Source: Candidatus Magasanikbacteria bacterium CG10_big_fil_rev_8_21_14_0_10_47_10 (GTDB lineage: Bacteria; Patescibacteriota; Patescibacteriia; Magasanikbacterales; UBA922). Taken from it: 36,973 bases of DNA. Where the stretch lies: assembly GCA_002773135.1 (NCBI GenBank), contig PFCB01000002.1, positions 3,327 through 40,299 on the forward strand, in the 5' to 3' direction. Each line of letters begins with the position of its first letter. Within the stretch, counting starts at the first letter, position 1. Under the pieces are notes generated by a model, which did no database searches, had not been told where the DNA came from, and saw only the letters and a list, made by a program, of their open reading frames with translations. Shown here piece by piece: positions 18,215 to 28,452 of this stretch. A program made the translations under genes and the position numbers.

Positions 18215-18243
18215 TTGACAAAAAAAATAAAAAACGCTACATT
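18215..18243 (+). promoter_or_regulatory. Strong promoter of GC-rich island 1
   Basis: Perfect -35 TTGACA (18215-18220), 17-bp A-rich spacer, -10 TACATT (18238-18243). Back to back with the secA promoter, so the two genes diverge from one 60-bp region. Confidence 0.8.
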
Positions 18244-18274
18244 AAGGCAAGAAACGCCCAACAAGGAGGTACTG

Positions 18275-18454
18275 ATGGGCACCAACGAGAACAGGCCGAT
18301 TCCCCTGCGCCAGAGCGGCTACCAGGTCGGAGACGGCCAAGATGCAGACTCACGGAAGCACACCCGGGACGAGCTCGTGGCCGCGTTCACACCCGAGAGC
18401 CGACCGCACAACCAGCCCGAGATCTCGGACGCGGCGCGCTGTGTGACCGGATGA
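18275..18454 (+). CDS. Small GC-rich gene, 59-residue hydrophilic protein, unknown function
   Basis: Starts MGTNENRPIPLRQSGYQVG and ends SDAARCVTG. The ATG at 18275 is fixed by a full Shine-Dalgarno AAGGAGGT (18263-18270) at 5-nt spacing behind a strong promoter, the best ribosome site in the window. The protein is polar, with no membrane segment and no family I recognise. Its third codon positions are mostly G or C, unlike secA and hpf on either side, which suggests transfer from a high-GC source. It overlaps the next gene by ATGA. A frame opening further upstream (18128) lies across the promoter and is not the start. Confidence 0.65.
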   Translation: MGTNENRPIPLRQSGYQVGDGQDADSRKHTRDELVAAFTPESRPHNQPEISDAARCVTG

Positions 18455-18642
18455 ACAGCGTGGCCAACAACCGCGTGTACTGCAACGCCTGCAGCACCAT
18501 GGTCCCTACCGGGACTGATCGCTGCACGCAGTGCGGACACGCGCGAGACGAGTCCGTTGGCTCTGAACAGTGCAAGTGCGCCAGCTGCCTGAAGGAACTC
18601 GCCAAGCAGGCGAAGAAGAAGGGGCAGGCCGCCGCCATCTAG
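18451..18642 (+). CDS. Small zinc-ribbon protein, GC-rich
   Basis: 63 residues. Six cysteines follow a zinc-ribbon pattern: C11-X2-C14 ... C25-X2-C28, then C41-X1-C43-X2-C46, so at least one metal site is likely. The C-terminus is basic (KELAKQAKKKGQ), which could bind nucleic acid. It is translated by ATGA coupling from the 59-residue gene and shares its strong GC bias. No specific family recognised; double-zinc-ribbon proteins of this size occur in phages and as RNA-binding or transcription accessory proteins, but that is only analogy. Followed by a GC-rich hairpin and a terminator, so the two genes form a closed unit. Confidence 0.65.
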   Translation: MNSVANNRVYCNACSTMVPTGTDRCTQCGHARDESVGSEQCKCASCLKELAKQAKKKGQAAAI

Positions 18643-18657
18643 CCCGCTTTGGGCACA

Positions 18658-18691
18658 CGCGCGGGGAGGACAACACACGTCCACCCGCGCG
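18658..18691. other. GC-rich hairpin after the zinc-ribbon gene
   Basis: CGCGCGGG (18658-18665) pairs with CCCGCGCG (18684-18691), and inside it GGAC pairs with GTCC (18668-18682). There is no T run, so it is not the terminator itself, which follows 18 nt later. It may protect the 3' end or be a small structured element of island 1. Confidence 0.5.
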
Positions 18692-18708
18692 CCACTCCAC
18701 AAAAAAAC

Positions 18709-18761
18709 AAAACGGCCCTATCCCGGATCCGCCGCAGGCGGATGAAGGATGTGGCCGTTTT
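18709..18761. terminator. Bidirectional terminator between island 1 and the hpf unit
   Basis: AAAACGGCC (18709-18717) pairs with GGCCGTTTT (18753-18761), and the T run continues. An inner stem ATCCGCC/GGCGGAT (18727-18743) has a 3-nt loop. A and T runs on both sides let it end the rightward island and the leftward gene at 18776. Confidence 0.8.
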
Positions 18762-18775
18762 TTCATTTATCTTTC

Positions 18776-20991: not shown

Positions 20992-22221
20992 ATGAAGGCA
21001 CTATACCAGCACATAGCGGACAATCCTCTTGTCTATATCAACCTGGATGTTGAGCGTGCCGCTCAGCTGGATTTGGGCGCGCCAGGTTACTATATTATAG
21101 CAAACAACACAGAATACGCCAGACAGCTTGCCGAGGGGCGAACAAATATCGTCCTCGTGGATGAGGGCCGCATCCTTTCCAGCCGCGAGCTGCTGGAGCA
21201 CCCGCGGACAGAGGCGTTTCTGGCGATGGTACAGACACAGCATGAAAAAGCTCCCGGTATTGTTGTTTTTAAAAATATTCCCCAAATCGAGGCATACTGC
21301 ACGCAAAAGGGGTGGCATTTATTGAACCCGGAGTCGGCGTTGATTGCGCGTGTCGAAGAAAAAATATCGCAGATAGAATGGCTTGGCGAGCTTGCGCGTT
21401 TTTTGCCGCCGCACACGGTCAGCACGGTGAAAGAAATTGTGTGGCCGGGCAAACCATTTATTCTTCAGTTTAATGCGTCTCACACCGGCAATGATACCTT
21501 TTTGATTGAATCAGAGACAGGACTCACCGAGCTCAGCGCCAAATTCCCCGAACGCGTGGCTCGCACTTTCTCGTACATTACCGGCTCAACAATTACCAGC
21601 AACAATGTTGTCACTCCACGTGGAACGCTGGTAGGATCTGTAAGCTACCAAATAACTGGCCTGGCACCGTTTACCGATCGCCCGTTTGCTACGGTTGGGA
21701 ACGATTGGAAACTTGCGAGCAAACTGCTTTCGGTAAAGAATGCAGAACAGTTCACCACCATGGTCAAAGAAATCGGCGACAAACTTCACGCAGATGGATA
21801 CCTGGGTGCCTTTGGCATAGATGTGGTACTCGATAGCCAATCGCAAAAGCTCTATTTGATAGAAATAAACGCGCGCCAACCCGCGTCCGTGCCGACAGAA
21901 TCTTTTTTGCAGTCCAAGCAAGACCCTGCCGGGACGACCATTTTTGAGGCTCACTTGGCCGCACTCTGCGGTTTGCCTATAGATGTGCCAGTCACGCATA
22001 TTGAAGACGGCGCGCAAATCATTTCCAGGGTGACAGAAACAGTCAATAGTGTGACGCCTCAGGCTATGGACGCGCTTACCAAAATAGACGGTCTCACTCT
22101 TATTCCATCGCCCGGTACTACGCCCGGCGGAGAAATACTGCGTATCCGCTCCGAACACGGCCTGATGAAAGCACACGGCGAGCTCAACGAACTGGGCACG
22201 CGGATACAGGCAATTCTATGA
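20992..22221 (+). CDS. ATP-grasp ligase of unknown substrate
   Basis: 409 residues. The C-terminal half fits the ATP-grasp fold: a strand-loop KPFILQFNASHTGNDTF corresponding to the nucleotide-binding Lys region, and the Mg2+-binding end GYLGAFGIDVVLD ... KLYLIEINARQPASVP, with the Glu-x-Asn pair that coordinates metal. These enzymes join a carboxylate to an amine or thiol through an acyl phosphate. The N-terminal 110 residues look like a Rossmann-type pre-ATP-grasp domain. It overlaps the following NlpC/P60-like gene as ATGA, so one makes and the other may cut or transfer an amide bond. Substrate unknown; murB and mraY on either side hint at cell wall or a short peptide. Confidence 0.8.
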   Translation: MKALYQHIADNPLVYINLDVERAAQLDLGAPGYYIIANNTEYARQLAEGRTNIVLVDEGRILSSRELLEHPRTEAFLAMVQTQHEKAPGIVVFKNIPQIEAYCTQKGWHLLNPESALIARVEEKISQIEWLGELARFLPPHTVSTVKEIVWPGKPFILQFNASHTGNDTFLIESETGLTELSAKFPERVARTFSYITGSTITSNNVVTPRGTLVGSVSYQITGLAPFTDRPFATVGNDWKLASKLLSVKNAEQFTTMVKEIGDKLHADGYLGAFGIDVVLDSQSQKLYLIEINARQPASVPTESFLQSKQDPAGTTIFEAHLAALCGLPIDVPVTHIEDGAQIISRVTETVNSVTPQAMDALTKIDGLTLIPSPGTTPGGEILRIRSEHGLMKAHGELNELGTRIQAIL

Positions 22222-22976
22222 AATCCACCCTATCCCAACCCGCGCTTGACATGATCGAGCACTATGCCCATTTGAAGATAGACGGCAAAACAGTCCGCTG
22301 CCCTTATTTTAATAACAAAAGAAATCGCGTGCGCGGCGCTCTGGGCGTGCATATTGGCAAAGGGCGGCCCGAAGATATTGAACATGAAGTTCAAATACTC
22401 GCCATGAAACAACACAAACAGCTCTCCGCGCTTACCGCGACCGACATTACTGAGCTTATGGTTGACAATAATATTGGGATTGACTGCTCAGGATTTGTGT
22501 ATCATGTCCTCAATGCCCAACGCCATGGCGCTTTGCGCAAATCAATTGCATTGTCAGCAACAAACCCCTTCAGAAAACTTATTGGTAAATTGCGCACAGC
22601 GGAAAATGTAAATGTTCAGGTATTTGCGAATGAAAAAAATTCAAAATCCATTGCACTCAAAGACGCTGCGCCGGGAGACATCATCGCGATGCTTGGGACA
22701 GGAGAAAAGCACGATTTGGATCATATGCTTTTGGTCAGTGAGGTCGAATACAACGAACAGAATGAACCAACAAAAATAGCCTACGTCCATTCGCTGCGGT
22801 GGCGGACAGACGCCAAGTACGGCCACGGCATAAAGTTCGGATCAATACGCATCATTGATGCTTCCAAAGGGCTGCTCGATCAATCATGGACCGAAGACGG
22901 TCACATTGATGAAAAAAATGAAACGCTCTGGCGGGCAAAGACAGCAGAAAAATTGGAAGTACGGCGAATACGGTAG
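22218..22976 (+). CDS. NlpC/P60-like cysteine peptidase or amidase
   Basis: 252 residues. The catalytic pattern of the papain-like NlpC/P60 fold is visible: C90 in GIDCSGFVYHVLN, H169 in DHMLLVSEV, and a third polar residue at H191 in AYVHSLRW. The segment DAAPGDIIAML before the His is also typical. No signal peptide or membrane helix is seen, so it works in the cytoplasm, unlike secreted wall hydrolases. It is coupled by a 4-nt overlap to the ATP-grasp ligase and followed by a terminator, so the two form a dedicated operon. Possible role: trimming or transpeptidation of a product of the ligase. No close family name recognised. Confidence 0.75.
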   Translation: MKSTLSQPALDMIEHYAHLKIDGKTVRCPYFNNKRNRVRGALGVHIGKGRPEDIEHEVQILAMKQHKQLSALTATDITELMVDNNIGIDCSGFVYHVLNAQRHGALRKSIALSATNPFRKLIGKLRTAENVNVQVFANEKNSKSIALKDAAPGDIIAMLGTGEKHDLDHMLLVSEVEYNEQNEPTKIAYVHSLRWRTDAKYGHGIKFGSIRIIDASKGLLDQSWTEDGHIDEKNETLWRAKTAEKLEVRRIR

Positions 22977-23012
22977 ACAATTCGCTTACTCAAAATTTCA
23001 TTGATAAAAACA

Positions 23013-23040
23013 AAAAAACCACCATATACGGTGGTTTTTT
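23013..23040. terminator. Bidirectional terminator bounding GC island 2
   Basis: Perfect 11-bp stem AAAAAACCACC (23013-23023)/GGTGGTTTTTT (23030-23040), loop ATATAC. It works for the rightward ATP-grasp/NlpC operon and for leftward transcripts coming out of GC island 2. Confidence 0.85.
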
Positions 23041-23052
23041 GTCCTGCTTTAT

Positions 23053-23402
23053 CCGCAAGCACGTTGCGGTCAAAGTGGGATGGGGTCCGGTCCGAGAAGC
23101 GCGTTCTCGAACCGGACAAGCTGGCGTCTCAATCATATGGCTCGCACAAGGTGCGTGCCATGTGAGAAACTGCCAGAAGCCGCAAGGGGCCCCGGACAGG
23201 ATGCGTGTGGAGGGTTGCATCCATGCACGGGGTCCCCAAGCGGGAAAGGTAGGCCTCGCCGGCGACATGCTCTGTCACCAGGCGTTGGTAGTAGGTGTTG
23301 CCACCGACGAGGCCTAAAAAGGTGCCGCGCGGAGGGGTATTTCACCGCCAAGTACGCCAAACCGCAGGATCGCGGATGCACGTACCAAACGGCCGCGCGG
23401 CA
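23053..23402. ncRNA. Candidate structured RNA: six consecutive multi-part hairpins
   Basis: The 384 nt between the terminator and the unknown gene hold stems in close succession: 23053-23069 (6 bp, loop 5); 23085-23117 (7+6 bp, loop 5); 23121-23176 (5+4+5+5 bp nested, 3-nt loop); 23180-23243 (4+4+5+6 bp nested); 23250-23316 (9+7 bp); 23323-23402 (10+5+4 bp). Each is built of segments that line up on one axis, which chance pairing in GC-rich DNA does not easily give. Strand is not settled: one mismatch becomes G-U on the minus strand (23092/23110), another on the plus strand (23264/23299). The leftward terminator favours a minus-strand 3' UTR or processed RNA of the gene at 23425. It does not match tmRNA, RNase P, SRP or 6S RNA motifs that I know. 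Confidence 0.55.
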
Positions 23403-23424
23403 TGATTTGTCGACGCGGCTGCGT

Positions 23425-24441
23425 CTAGAAGTTGTCGGCGAGACCCTCGGGGTCCATGGTCTTGATGTCGGGCATCGCGATGAGGCCGTAGGTCCGCTCG
23501 CCGTAGTCGTAGATGCCGAGCGAGGTGTCCTCGGCGGTGGTGATGCCGTTGAGCACGCCGTCGTTGTACTCCGACCGCGCGATCACCGTCCCGCACTGGA
23601 AGGCCTTGCCCCCCGCCATGGTGCTGTACTCGACCGTGGTCCGGTCGGCGAACTGCACCACCAGAGTCCCGCGCGCGACGTCCACGGTCGTGGCGCGCTT
23701 GACGAAGACCTCGAACTGATCCTTGCCCGGGATCTTGACCGCGAGCTCGCCGTCCTCGCCGTTGATCGCGGCGATCATGCCCGTCTTGCGGCAGACGGCG
23801 ATCTGGAAGGCCGCGTTCGTGTGGCCGGTCCACTCGCCGATCTTCTCGATGTCGATGGCCGTCATCGTCAGCACCTTGCGGCGGCCCGTGTCGTCCACGG
23901 CGATCGCCCCGAAGAAGCTGATGCCGTCGCCCTCGCGCGGGAAGGCGGCGTCGATGTCGACGATCCGGCGGAACCCCCAACGCGTCTCGCAGTTGACCTG
24001 CTCGCTGTCGCGGTCGTAGATGCTGAAGTTCTGGGGCGGGTGCCCCTTCTTGCTGGCCGTGCACCGGTAGATGTGCCCGTGGCTCATGGCCGAGACCCCG
24101 AGCTTGCGCGCGAAGGCCTTGAGCGCTTCCTGCCAGCGGTGGTTCACGATCGCCGGCGACACCGAGTAGCCGAGCACCGTGGCACCGCCCTGGGCCGCCA
24201 TCAGCCGGTTGATCTCCACCCCCTCGCCGCTGGTGCGGCCGAGGGTGAACATCCCGGGCGTCTTCATGCCCGGCAGCATCTGCACCCGCAGGGTCGGATC
24301 CTGCCAGCCGTCCGAGCCGGCCAGCAGTTCGATGCTCGCGGCCAGGTCGAGGATCTCGGGGATCCTCTCGTCCTTGATCTCCGACAGCGGTCGGGAAAGG
24401 GTGTCGACCACCATGGCCGGCAGGCTCTTCTTGGTCTGCAC
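23425..24441 (-). CDS. GC-rich gene of unknown function, 338 residues
   Basis: Not a family I recognise. The GTG start at 24441 is chosen because AGGAG lies 7 nt upstream and because strongly G/C third codon positions begin exactly there. An in-frame ATG at 24537 has neutral codon use and sits in a leader hairpin. The protein is soluble with no signal or membrane segment. It has an N-terminal helical part (SEIKDERIPEILDLAASIEL), a GEGVEINRLMAAQGGATVLG segment and a mostly beta-strand C-terminal half. Four cysteines are scattered, without a metal motif. It sits alone between a strong promoter and a structured region plus terminator. Composition differs sharply from murB, mraY and mpl, so transfer is likely. 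Confidence 0.7.
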   Translation of the reverse strand: MQTKKSLPAMVVDTLSRPLSEIKDERIPEILDLAASIELLAGSDGWQDPTLRVQMLPGMKTPGMFTLGRTSGEGVEINRLMAAQGGATVLGYSVSPAIVNHRWQEALKAFARKLGVSAMSHGHIYRCTASKKGHPPQNFSIYDRDSEQVNCETRWGFRRIVDIDAAFPREGDGISFFGAIAVDDTGRRKVLTMTAIDIEKIGEWTGHTNAAFQIAVCRKTGMIAAINGEDGELAVKIPGKDQFEVFVKRATTVDVARGTLVVQFADRTTVEYSTMAGGKAFQCGTVIARSEYNDGVLNGITTAEDTSLGIYDYGERTYGLIAMPDIKTMDPEGLADNF

Positions 24442-24508
24442 TGAATCACTCCTGTCTGCGTCCGCACTCCGGCGAACGTTCACGTTTTGGGGCAAGTGCC
24501 CTCGATCC

Positions 24509-24530
24509 TTCCCGGTAGGATAACCGGGAA
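24509..24530 (-). promoter_or_regulatory. Leader hairpin in the 5' UTR of the GC-rich gene
   Basis: On the minus strand TTCCCGGT pairs perfectly with ACCGGGAA around a 6-nt loop, starting a few nt after the predicted transcription start. It could stabilise the mRNA or control translation of the GTG start about 70 nt downstream. Confidence 0.5.
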
Positions 24531-24544
24531 AAGGCATGCGCAAG

Positions 24545-24573
24545 AGTATACCCTGCTTATTACATTGCGTCAA
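24545..24573 (-). promoter_or_regulatory. Strong promoter of GC island 2
   Basis: Minus strand: -35 TTGACG (24568-24573), 17-bp spacer, -10 TATACT (24545-24550). The predicted start near 24538 gives a leader of about 97 nt to the GTG at 24441. Confidence 0.8.
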
Positions 24574-24601
24574 GAGAAACGAGATGTAGTGTCTAGACAG
24601 G

Positions 24602-24657
24602 CAAAACATCCAAAACAACACTAGAGTCTAGACTTTTGTGTTGTTTTGGATGTTTTG
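24602..24657. repeat. Perfect 20-bp inverted repeat between divergent promoters
   Basis: The left arm 24602-24621 and right arm 24638-24657 are exact reverse complements (A/C-rich against T/G-rich), with a 16-nt loop containing the palindrome AGTCTAGACT. GTCTAGAC occurs again at 24591-24598. There is no T run, so it is not a normal terminator. It lies between the -35 of GC island 2 and the -35 of mraY, a place for an operator, insulator or recombination site. Confidence 0.8.
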
Positions 24658-24675
24658 TGTCGTTTACTCACCCCG

Positions 24676-24704
24676 TTGCCAAACTCCCAAAAACCTGTTA
24701 ATCT
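24676..24704 (+). promoter_or_regulatory. Promoter of mraY, leaderless type
   Basis: -35 TTGCCA (24676-24681), 17-bp spacer, extended -10 TGTTAATCT (hexamer 24699-24704), 9 nt to the mraY ATG. Confidence 0.6.
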
Positions 24705-24713
24705 AGCTCCATT

Positions 24714-28338: not shown

Positions 28339-28376
28339 GCCAAGGTTATAGAGGAAGTCAATTTCCTTTGACCGTG

Positions 28377-28452
28377 GATCCCTCGCTTGGCTCGGGATGA
28401 AGGCACGCGGTGTAGATCCCTCGCTTGGCTCGGGATGAAGGCACGCGGTGTC
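28377..28452. repeat. Tandem direct repeat, two 38-bp units
   Basis: Units 28377-28414 and 28415-28452 differ only at the last base. They lie between the mpl-like stop and the end of the LysW-like gene. No gene is seen in 28270-28454 apart from these repeats. There are no spacers, so this is not CRISPR. Copy number may vary between strains. Confidence 0.85.

Follow-up and report, generated by a model that had tools for sequence, protein, structure and literature searches.

A GC-rich single-gene unit next to mraY

The window that we analyzed is a stretch of 36,973 nucleotides from the genome of a Candidatus Magasanikbacteria-type Patescibacterium (1.04 Mb in 36 contigs, 46% GC). When we compared mraY, the closest named relatives that carry this gene were MAGs of Candidatus Magasanikbacteria and Parcubacteria. 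Positions 22977–24713 of the window form the gap between mraY and the gene for a 252-aa protein (P252). This gap holds a block of 65% GC (about 23043–24542), with sharp edges against the 46% of the genome, which contains a 336-aa ORF and a row of six hairpins. The features of the unit, in the order of the minus strand, are:

24573–24545, minus strand: sigma-70-like promoter, TTGACG-17-TATACT (10 of 12 positions match; a consensus match only)
24435–23425, minus strand: 336-aa orphan ORF, GTG start after AGGAG, GC1/2/3 of 0.60/0.46/0.97
23402–23323, minus strand: hairpin H1, a 10 bp base and then 5, 7, and 5 bp; it begins 22 nt past the stop codon
23316–23250, minus strand: hairpin H2, 18 continuous basal pairs including G-U, then 2+5
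23242–23181, minus strand: hairpin H3, stacked segments of 3, 4, 5, 3, and 6 bp
23176–23121, minus strand: hairpin H4, four stacked segments
23117–23085, minus strand: hairpin H5, 14 bp with one G-U
23069–23053, minus strand: hairpin H6, 6 bp
23040–23013, minus strand: U-tailed terminator, 12 bp and a T tract, palindromic, just past H6

The promoter lies ~100 nt upstream of the ORF, whose GC3 of 0.97 compares with rough genome-wide values of 0.48 (median) and 0.75 (99th percentile). The hairpin row is placed between the ORF's stop codon and the terminator. Its linkers are 3–10 nt long, except for 15 nt between H5 and H6. Because the terminator is palindromic, it can also serve the converging plus-strand gene at 22218–22976, at whose end it lies.

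The order P252-mraY is conserved in relatives. There, the gap (read by eye in L005–L031) is empty or holds other small minus-strand genes, some of them GC-rich; we saw a PurH-domain-like fragment (L026), a Cys-rich small protein (L011), a GC-rich orphan (L031), or no gene. Judging from these sequences, the gap seems to be an insertion pocket whose cargo changes. The foreign-type composition of the ORF and the hairpins is seen directly, and we infer that the gene and its hairpin tail are one GC-rich segment that was acquired horizontally and now lies between two host genes of conserved order. Patescibacteria are documented to acquire genes often, probably also through natural competence (PMC12455944).

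There are two other repeats in the window. Positions 24602–24657 are a near-perfect palindrome with 28-nt arms. We considered this as the end of an element and rejected it, as it is one member of an intergenic repeat family (AAAACGACACTAGAGTCTAGACT type) that is dispersed over four other contigs and also occurs away from GC-rich genes. At 28374–28449, a tandem pair of a 38-nt repeat (GTGGATCCCTCGCTTGGCTCGGGATGAAGGCACGCGGT) adjoins a hairpin-forming repeat.

Folding and coding potential of the hairpin region

The first-pass annotation had described 23053–23402 as six consecutive hairpins whose order and nesting are too regular for chance pairing, even in GC-rich DNA, and had proposed folding both strands against dinucleotide-shuffled controls. 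On the minus strand (23402 to 23053, 350 nt), the minimum free energy (MFE) is -185.6 kcal/mol, versus -129.7 ± 5.2 for the shuffles (z = -10.7). The plus strand of the same 350 nt has an MFE of -172.6 (z = -5.3), and no shuffle reached the native MFE on either strand. All six hairpins were resolved, with minus-strand z scores from H1 to H6 of -3.6, -5.9, -6.1, -5.9, -5.0, and -2.4, energies from -7.7 to -44 kcal/mol, and stems of up to 18 bp. In sliding windows, the folding signal ends at the borders of the region. The adjoining ORF has an even higher GC content and folds like its own shuffles, so the signal is not an artefact of GC content, and the earlier description was right on both counts. 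When we screened 317 kb of the genome for MFE relative to GC, 23001–23200 was among the most structured 200-nt windows.

The stronger folding on the gene's strand (z of -10.7 instead of -5.3) favors an RNA that is part of the gene's message. As a substitute test for selection on a minus-strand RNA, we counted appositions in the stems and found 9 G-U and 4 A-C; this is a neutral count and suggestive at most.

A short protein-like frame on the minus strand (~23160–23345) had also been pointed out. GC by codon phase is flat across the hairpins (0.69/0.61/0.59) as compared to 0.60/0.46/0.97 in the neighboring ORF. Without codon-position periodicity in GC, we ruled out a protein-coding reading of the hairpins, and the short frame is not supported. 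The open frames in the hairpins are chance frames of GC-rich DNA.

Searches for relatives of the hairpins and the protein

Rfam had no matches at gathering or curated thresholds anywhere in the window, and the sub-threshold matches were mostly on the terminator. The first-pass annotation had likewise named no match to tmRNA, RNase P, SRP, 6S, or common riboswitches. Using blastn with the hairpins against 95 genomes, we found only the locus itself; the same was true for a covariance model of H2 and H3 (R1) run against 286 genomes and 347 kb of retrieved DNA. Distant blastn comparisons to phages and plasmids gave scattered short matches that covered 2–4% of the query. The sampled part of the genome contains no other copy of the hairpins.

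Searches with the 336-aa protein in Pfam, PHROGs, the PDB, phage and plasmid collections, IMG/VR, GTDB contigs, and 380 genomes from the phylum yielded no relative, and the protein did not match any RNA-guided nuclease or other family. The one weak match covered 84 residues within a longer, unrelated frame, and we judged it to be due to chance. An AlphaFold prediction without an alignment had a pLDDT of 36.5, and we left this model out of the interpretation. Altogether, neither the hairpins nor the protein had relatives in Rfam, Pfam, PHROGs, phages, plasmids, IMG/VR, GTDB contigs, or ~290–380 related genomes.

Guide or partner RNAs adjoin their protein genes. Here, the hairpins adjoin an orphan protein gene of matching composition, all six are intact, their folding is extreme and regular, and Rfam does not match them. 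These could be signs of an undescribed functional non-coding RNA, either separate or cut from the 3' UTR, that acts in trans or together with the orphan protein. We consider this unlikely: no site resembling a promoter lies directly ahead of H1 on the minus strand, neither blastn (95 genomes) nor the covariance model (286 genomes) found a relative, the genome sample holds no second copy, and the protein matches no RNA-guided nuclease or other family. The first-pass annotation, which included neither the stop codon 22 nt upstream nor the terminator just downstream, had proposed a candidate undescribed structured RNA. The structure, the absence of an Rfam match, and the noncoding character all stand. 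What speaks against a stand-alone RNA is the position in a 3' UTR, the lack of any second instance in the searches, and the presence of shorter versions at other GC-rich genes (see below). The hairpins are probably not a free-standing RNA gene and instead occupy the 3' UTR of a minus-strand transcription unit with one gene.

The hairpins might also have no present function. They could be imperfect palindromes that were carried along with foreign DNA, or that arose from local inverted duplications, without any selection. A singleton provides no evidence of conservation, the ratio of G-U to A-C does not clearly indicate selection on an RNA, and the genome has other, unrelated intergenic stretches that are rich in hairpins. 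But all six hairpins are intact and follow one another with short linkers, their combined folding is improbable for drifting DNA, and they fit exactly from the stop codon to the terminator, which makes this quite unlikely.

Hairpins at other GC-rich genes

To see if this arrangement recurs, we used a sample of ~280 kb of stretches from the 1.04 Mb genome. There are about a dozen GC-rich gene islands (59–66%) in ~317 kb of the genome. Besides orphans, these include a PP2C phosphatase, a PRPP synthetase-like protein, an M23 peptidase, and putative lipoproteins, and several of the islands have a sigma-70-like promoter in AT-rich DNA (read by eye). Near the stop codon, all of the testable GC-rich genes in the sample (11/11) carry an extended hairpin without a T tail and with an energy of -17 kcal/mol or lower. 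These hairpins are mostly within ~45 nt of the stop, often have several stacked segments, and are usually followed by a U-tailed terminator. Besides the two islands in the window, about 10 GC-rich single-gene islands, which appear to be foreign, are scattered in the genome and have extended hairpins past the stop:

L042:1–534
L042:15541–16455
L043:10441–11565
L046:2768–3625
L048:10505–10843
L054:11980–12500
L055:4014–4655
L055:6366–7148
L055:9017–10339
L060:18051–18845

The strongest 3' hairpin without a T tail has a median energy of -30.3 kcal/mol for the GC-rich genes versus -21.5 for 124 native genes (Mann-Whitney p = 0.0003), a difference that is partly an effect of GC content and that relies on rough calls of the native genes. 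Across roughly called genes, the GC3 of a gene was not correlated with the z score of 3' folding, and several GC-rich genes were called in the wrong frame in that set. Among the hairpins after GC-rich genes, the row of six is the most elaborate.

The window also contains a second GC-rich mini-island at 18274–18765 (the GC-rich part is 18274–18642). It has a promoter-like site at 18215–18243, AAGGAGG, two small ORFs (the second is likely a zinc ribbon), a GC-rich hairpin directly past the stop, and then a terminator.

Chains of long multi-segment hairpins are also found between genes at L042:1190–1950 (minus strand), L046:3626–4200, and L054:17150–17750 (minus strand). They are not related in sequence to each other or to 23053–23402.

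Comparison with integron cassettes and large structured RNAs

As in integron cassettes with their attC sites, a single foreign gene has imperfect multi-segment hairpins at its 3' end. The hairpins could therefore be a DNA-level element, such as an integron attC or the end of a mobile cassette, that acts in recombination as single-stranded DNA and that brought the gene. Both strands fold, the 9 to 4 count of G-U to A-C is weak evidence for selection on RNA, and the genome of a relative has an integron-like array whose repeats form long multi-segment hairpins. Nevertheless, we think that this is quite improbable. We found no GTTRRRY/RYYYAAC core pair in 23011–23424, which led us to reject the attC reading of the locus, and the unit has its own promoter. 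The genome has no integron-type integrase near or above the TIGR02249 cut-off of 265 bits; all that it shows is a XerC-like frame of 367 aa on contig 1, matched in two weak fragments of 96.6 and 43.3 bits. Also, there are six different hairpins instead of one, and they are not similar to the relative's repeats.

The array in that relative, which belongs to the same family, is at L062:9209–17000 (L062 is G026:C8:34000–52000). A recombinase similar to IntI or XerA adjoins it. The recombinase scores 259 bits with TIGR02249 (cut-off 265) and 256.6 bits with NF040815 (cut-off 220), and its best match in PDB is the integron integrase IntI4. The array comprises six copies of a 120-nt hairpin-rich repeat, which are 76–93% identical and bear ACGTTCGGCAACAT. 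Unrelated small genes, such as GNAT and RNase Z-like ones, lie between the copies. From its sequence, this resembles a cassette array of the integron type within Patescibacteria, and we found no report of one in a literature search that mostly covered papers available without a subscription. Many other genomes of the family also have TIGR02249 matches of similar strength (>100 bits), several of them near contig ends. Separately, at L056:450–850 (minus strand), the 3' part of a tRNA-like sequence (GAATCGGGGTTCGAAACCCTGTCCCCGAGC) occurs a second time within ~110 nt after it, which resembles the layout of an integration site.

RNAs of the OLE, GOLLD, and ROOL type are hundreds of nucleotides long and nearly all base-paired, with several stem-loops. 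The hairpin region is likewise almost fully paired over hundreds of nucleotides, but it has no match in Rfam and no conserved relatives, it lies in a 3' UTR, and it is a simple linear row of hairpins.

A proposed structured 3' end for a presumably acquired gene

We lean towards the hairpin cluster being the structured 3' UTR of the presumably acquired 336-aa gene, where it would aid termination or protect the mRNA. The unit is presumably transcribed as one RNA. RNA polymerase would start at ~24.54 kb, read the gene leftward, continue through the six hairpins, and stop at the U-tailed terminator at 23.01 kb. Together, the hairpins would form a stable 3' end that makes the polymerase pause and helps termination, as is proposed for hairpin clusters, and they may block the entry of 3'-to-5' exonucleases into the message.

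The closest described termination unit is the cluster-hairpin terminator, in which hairpins less than 15 nt apart lie no more than 80 nt past the stop codon (Gupta and Pal 2021, PMC8355165). Such clusters are more common in high-GC genomes; their hairpins are short (2–10 bp) and mostly weak, and a U tract is not needed (PMC8355165). Our locus also has several close hairpins, and H1 begins well within 80 nt of the stop. As for the spacing, most linkers are 3–10 nt, but H5 and H6 are 15 nt apart. In contrast to the published clusters, H2 and H5 have 18 and 14 continuous pairs, energies reach -44 kcal/mol, and a U-tailed terminator follows. That the hairpins are mostly far longer and stronger counts against our reading. 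Because of these long stems and the terminator, the row would work like a cluster unit without having every feature that defines one. Since a simple U-tailed terminator is already present, six extra hairpins look excessive for termination alone.

A broader and quite improbable idea is that members of this family of Patescibacteria have dozens of recently acquired GC-rich genes that stand alone, each with a promoter, the gene, a complex hairpin tail, and a terminator. The tails would then be a functional class, acting as RNA or DNA, that is tied to gene capture or to continued expression, with the six-hairpin chain as its most elaborate member.

As a single case without relatives, the hairpin tail does not yet establish a new class of RNA. 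It does offer a simple reporter experiment, and other Patescibacteria can be searched for the same pattern. If the tail protects or ends foreign messages, then it would show how a bacterium with a streamlined genome maintains the expression of genes whose composition is alien to it.
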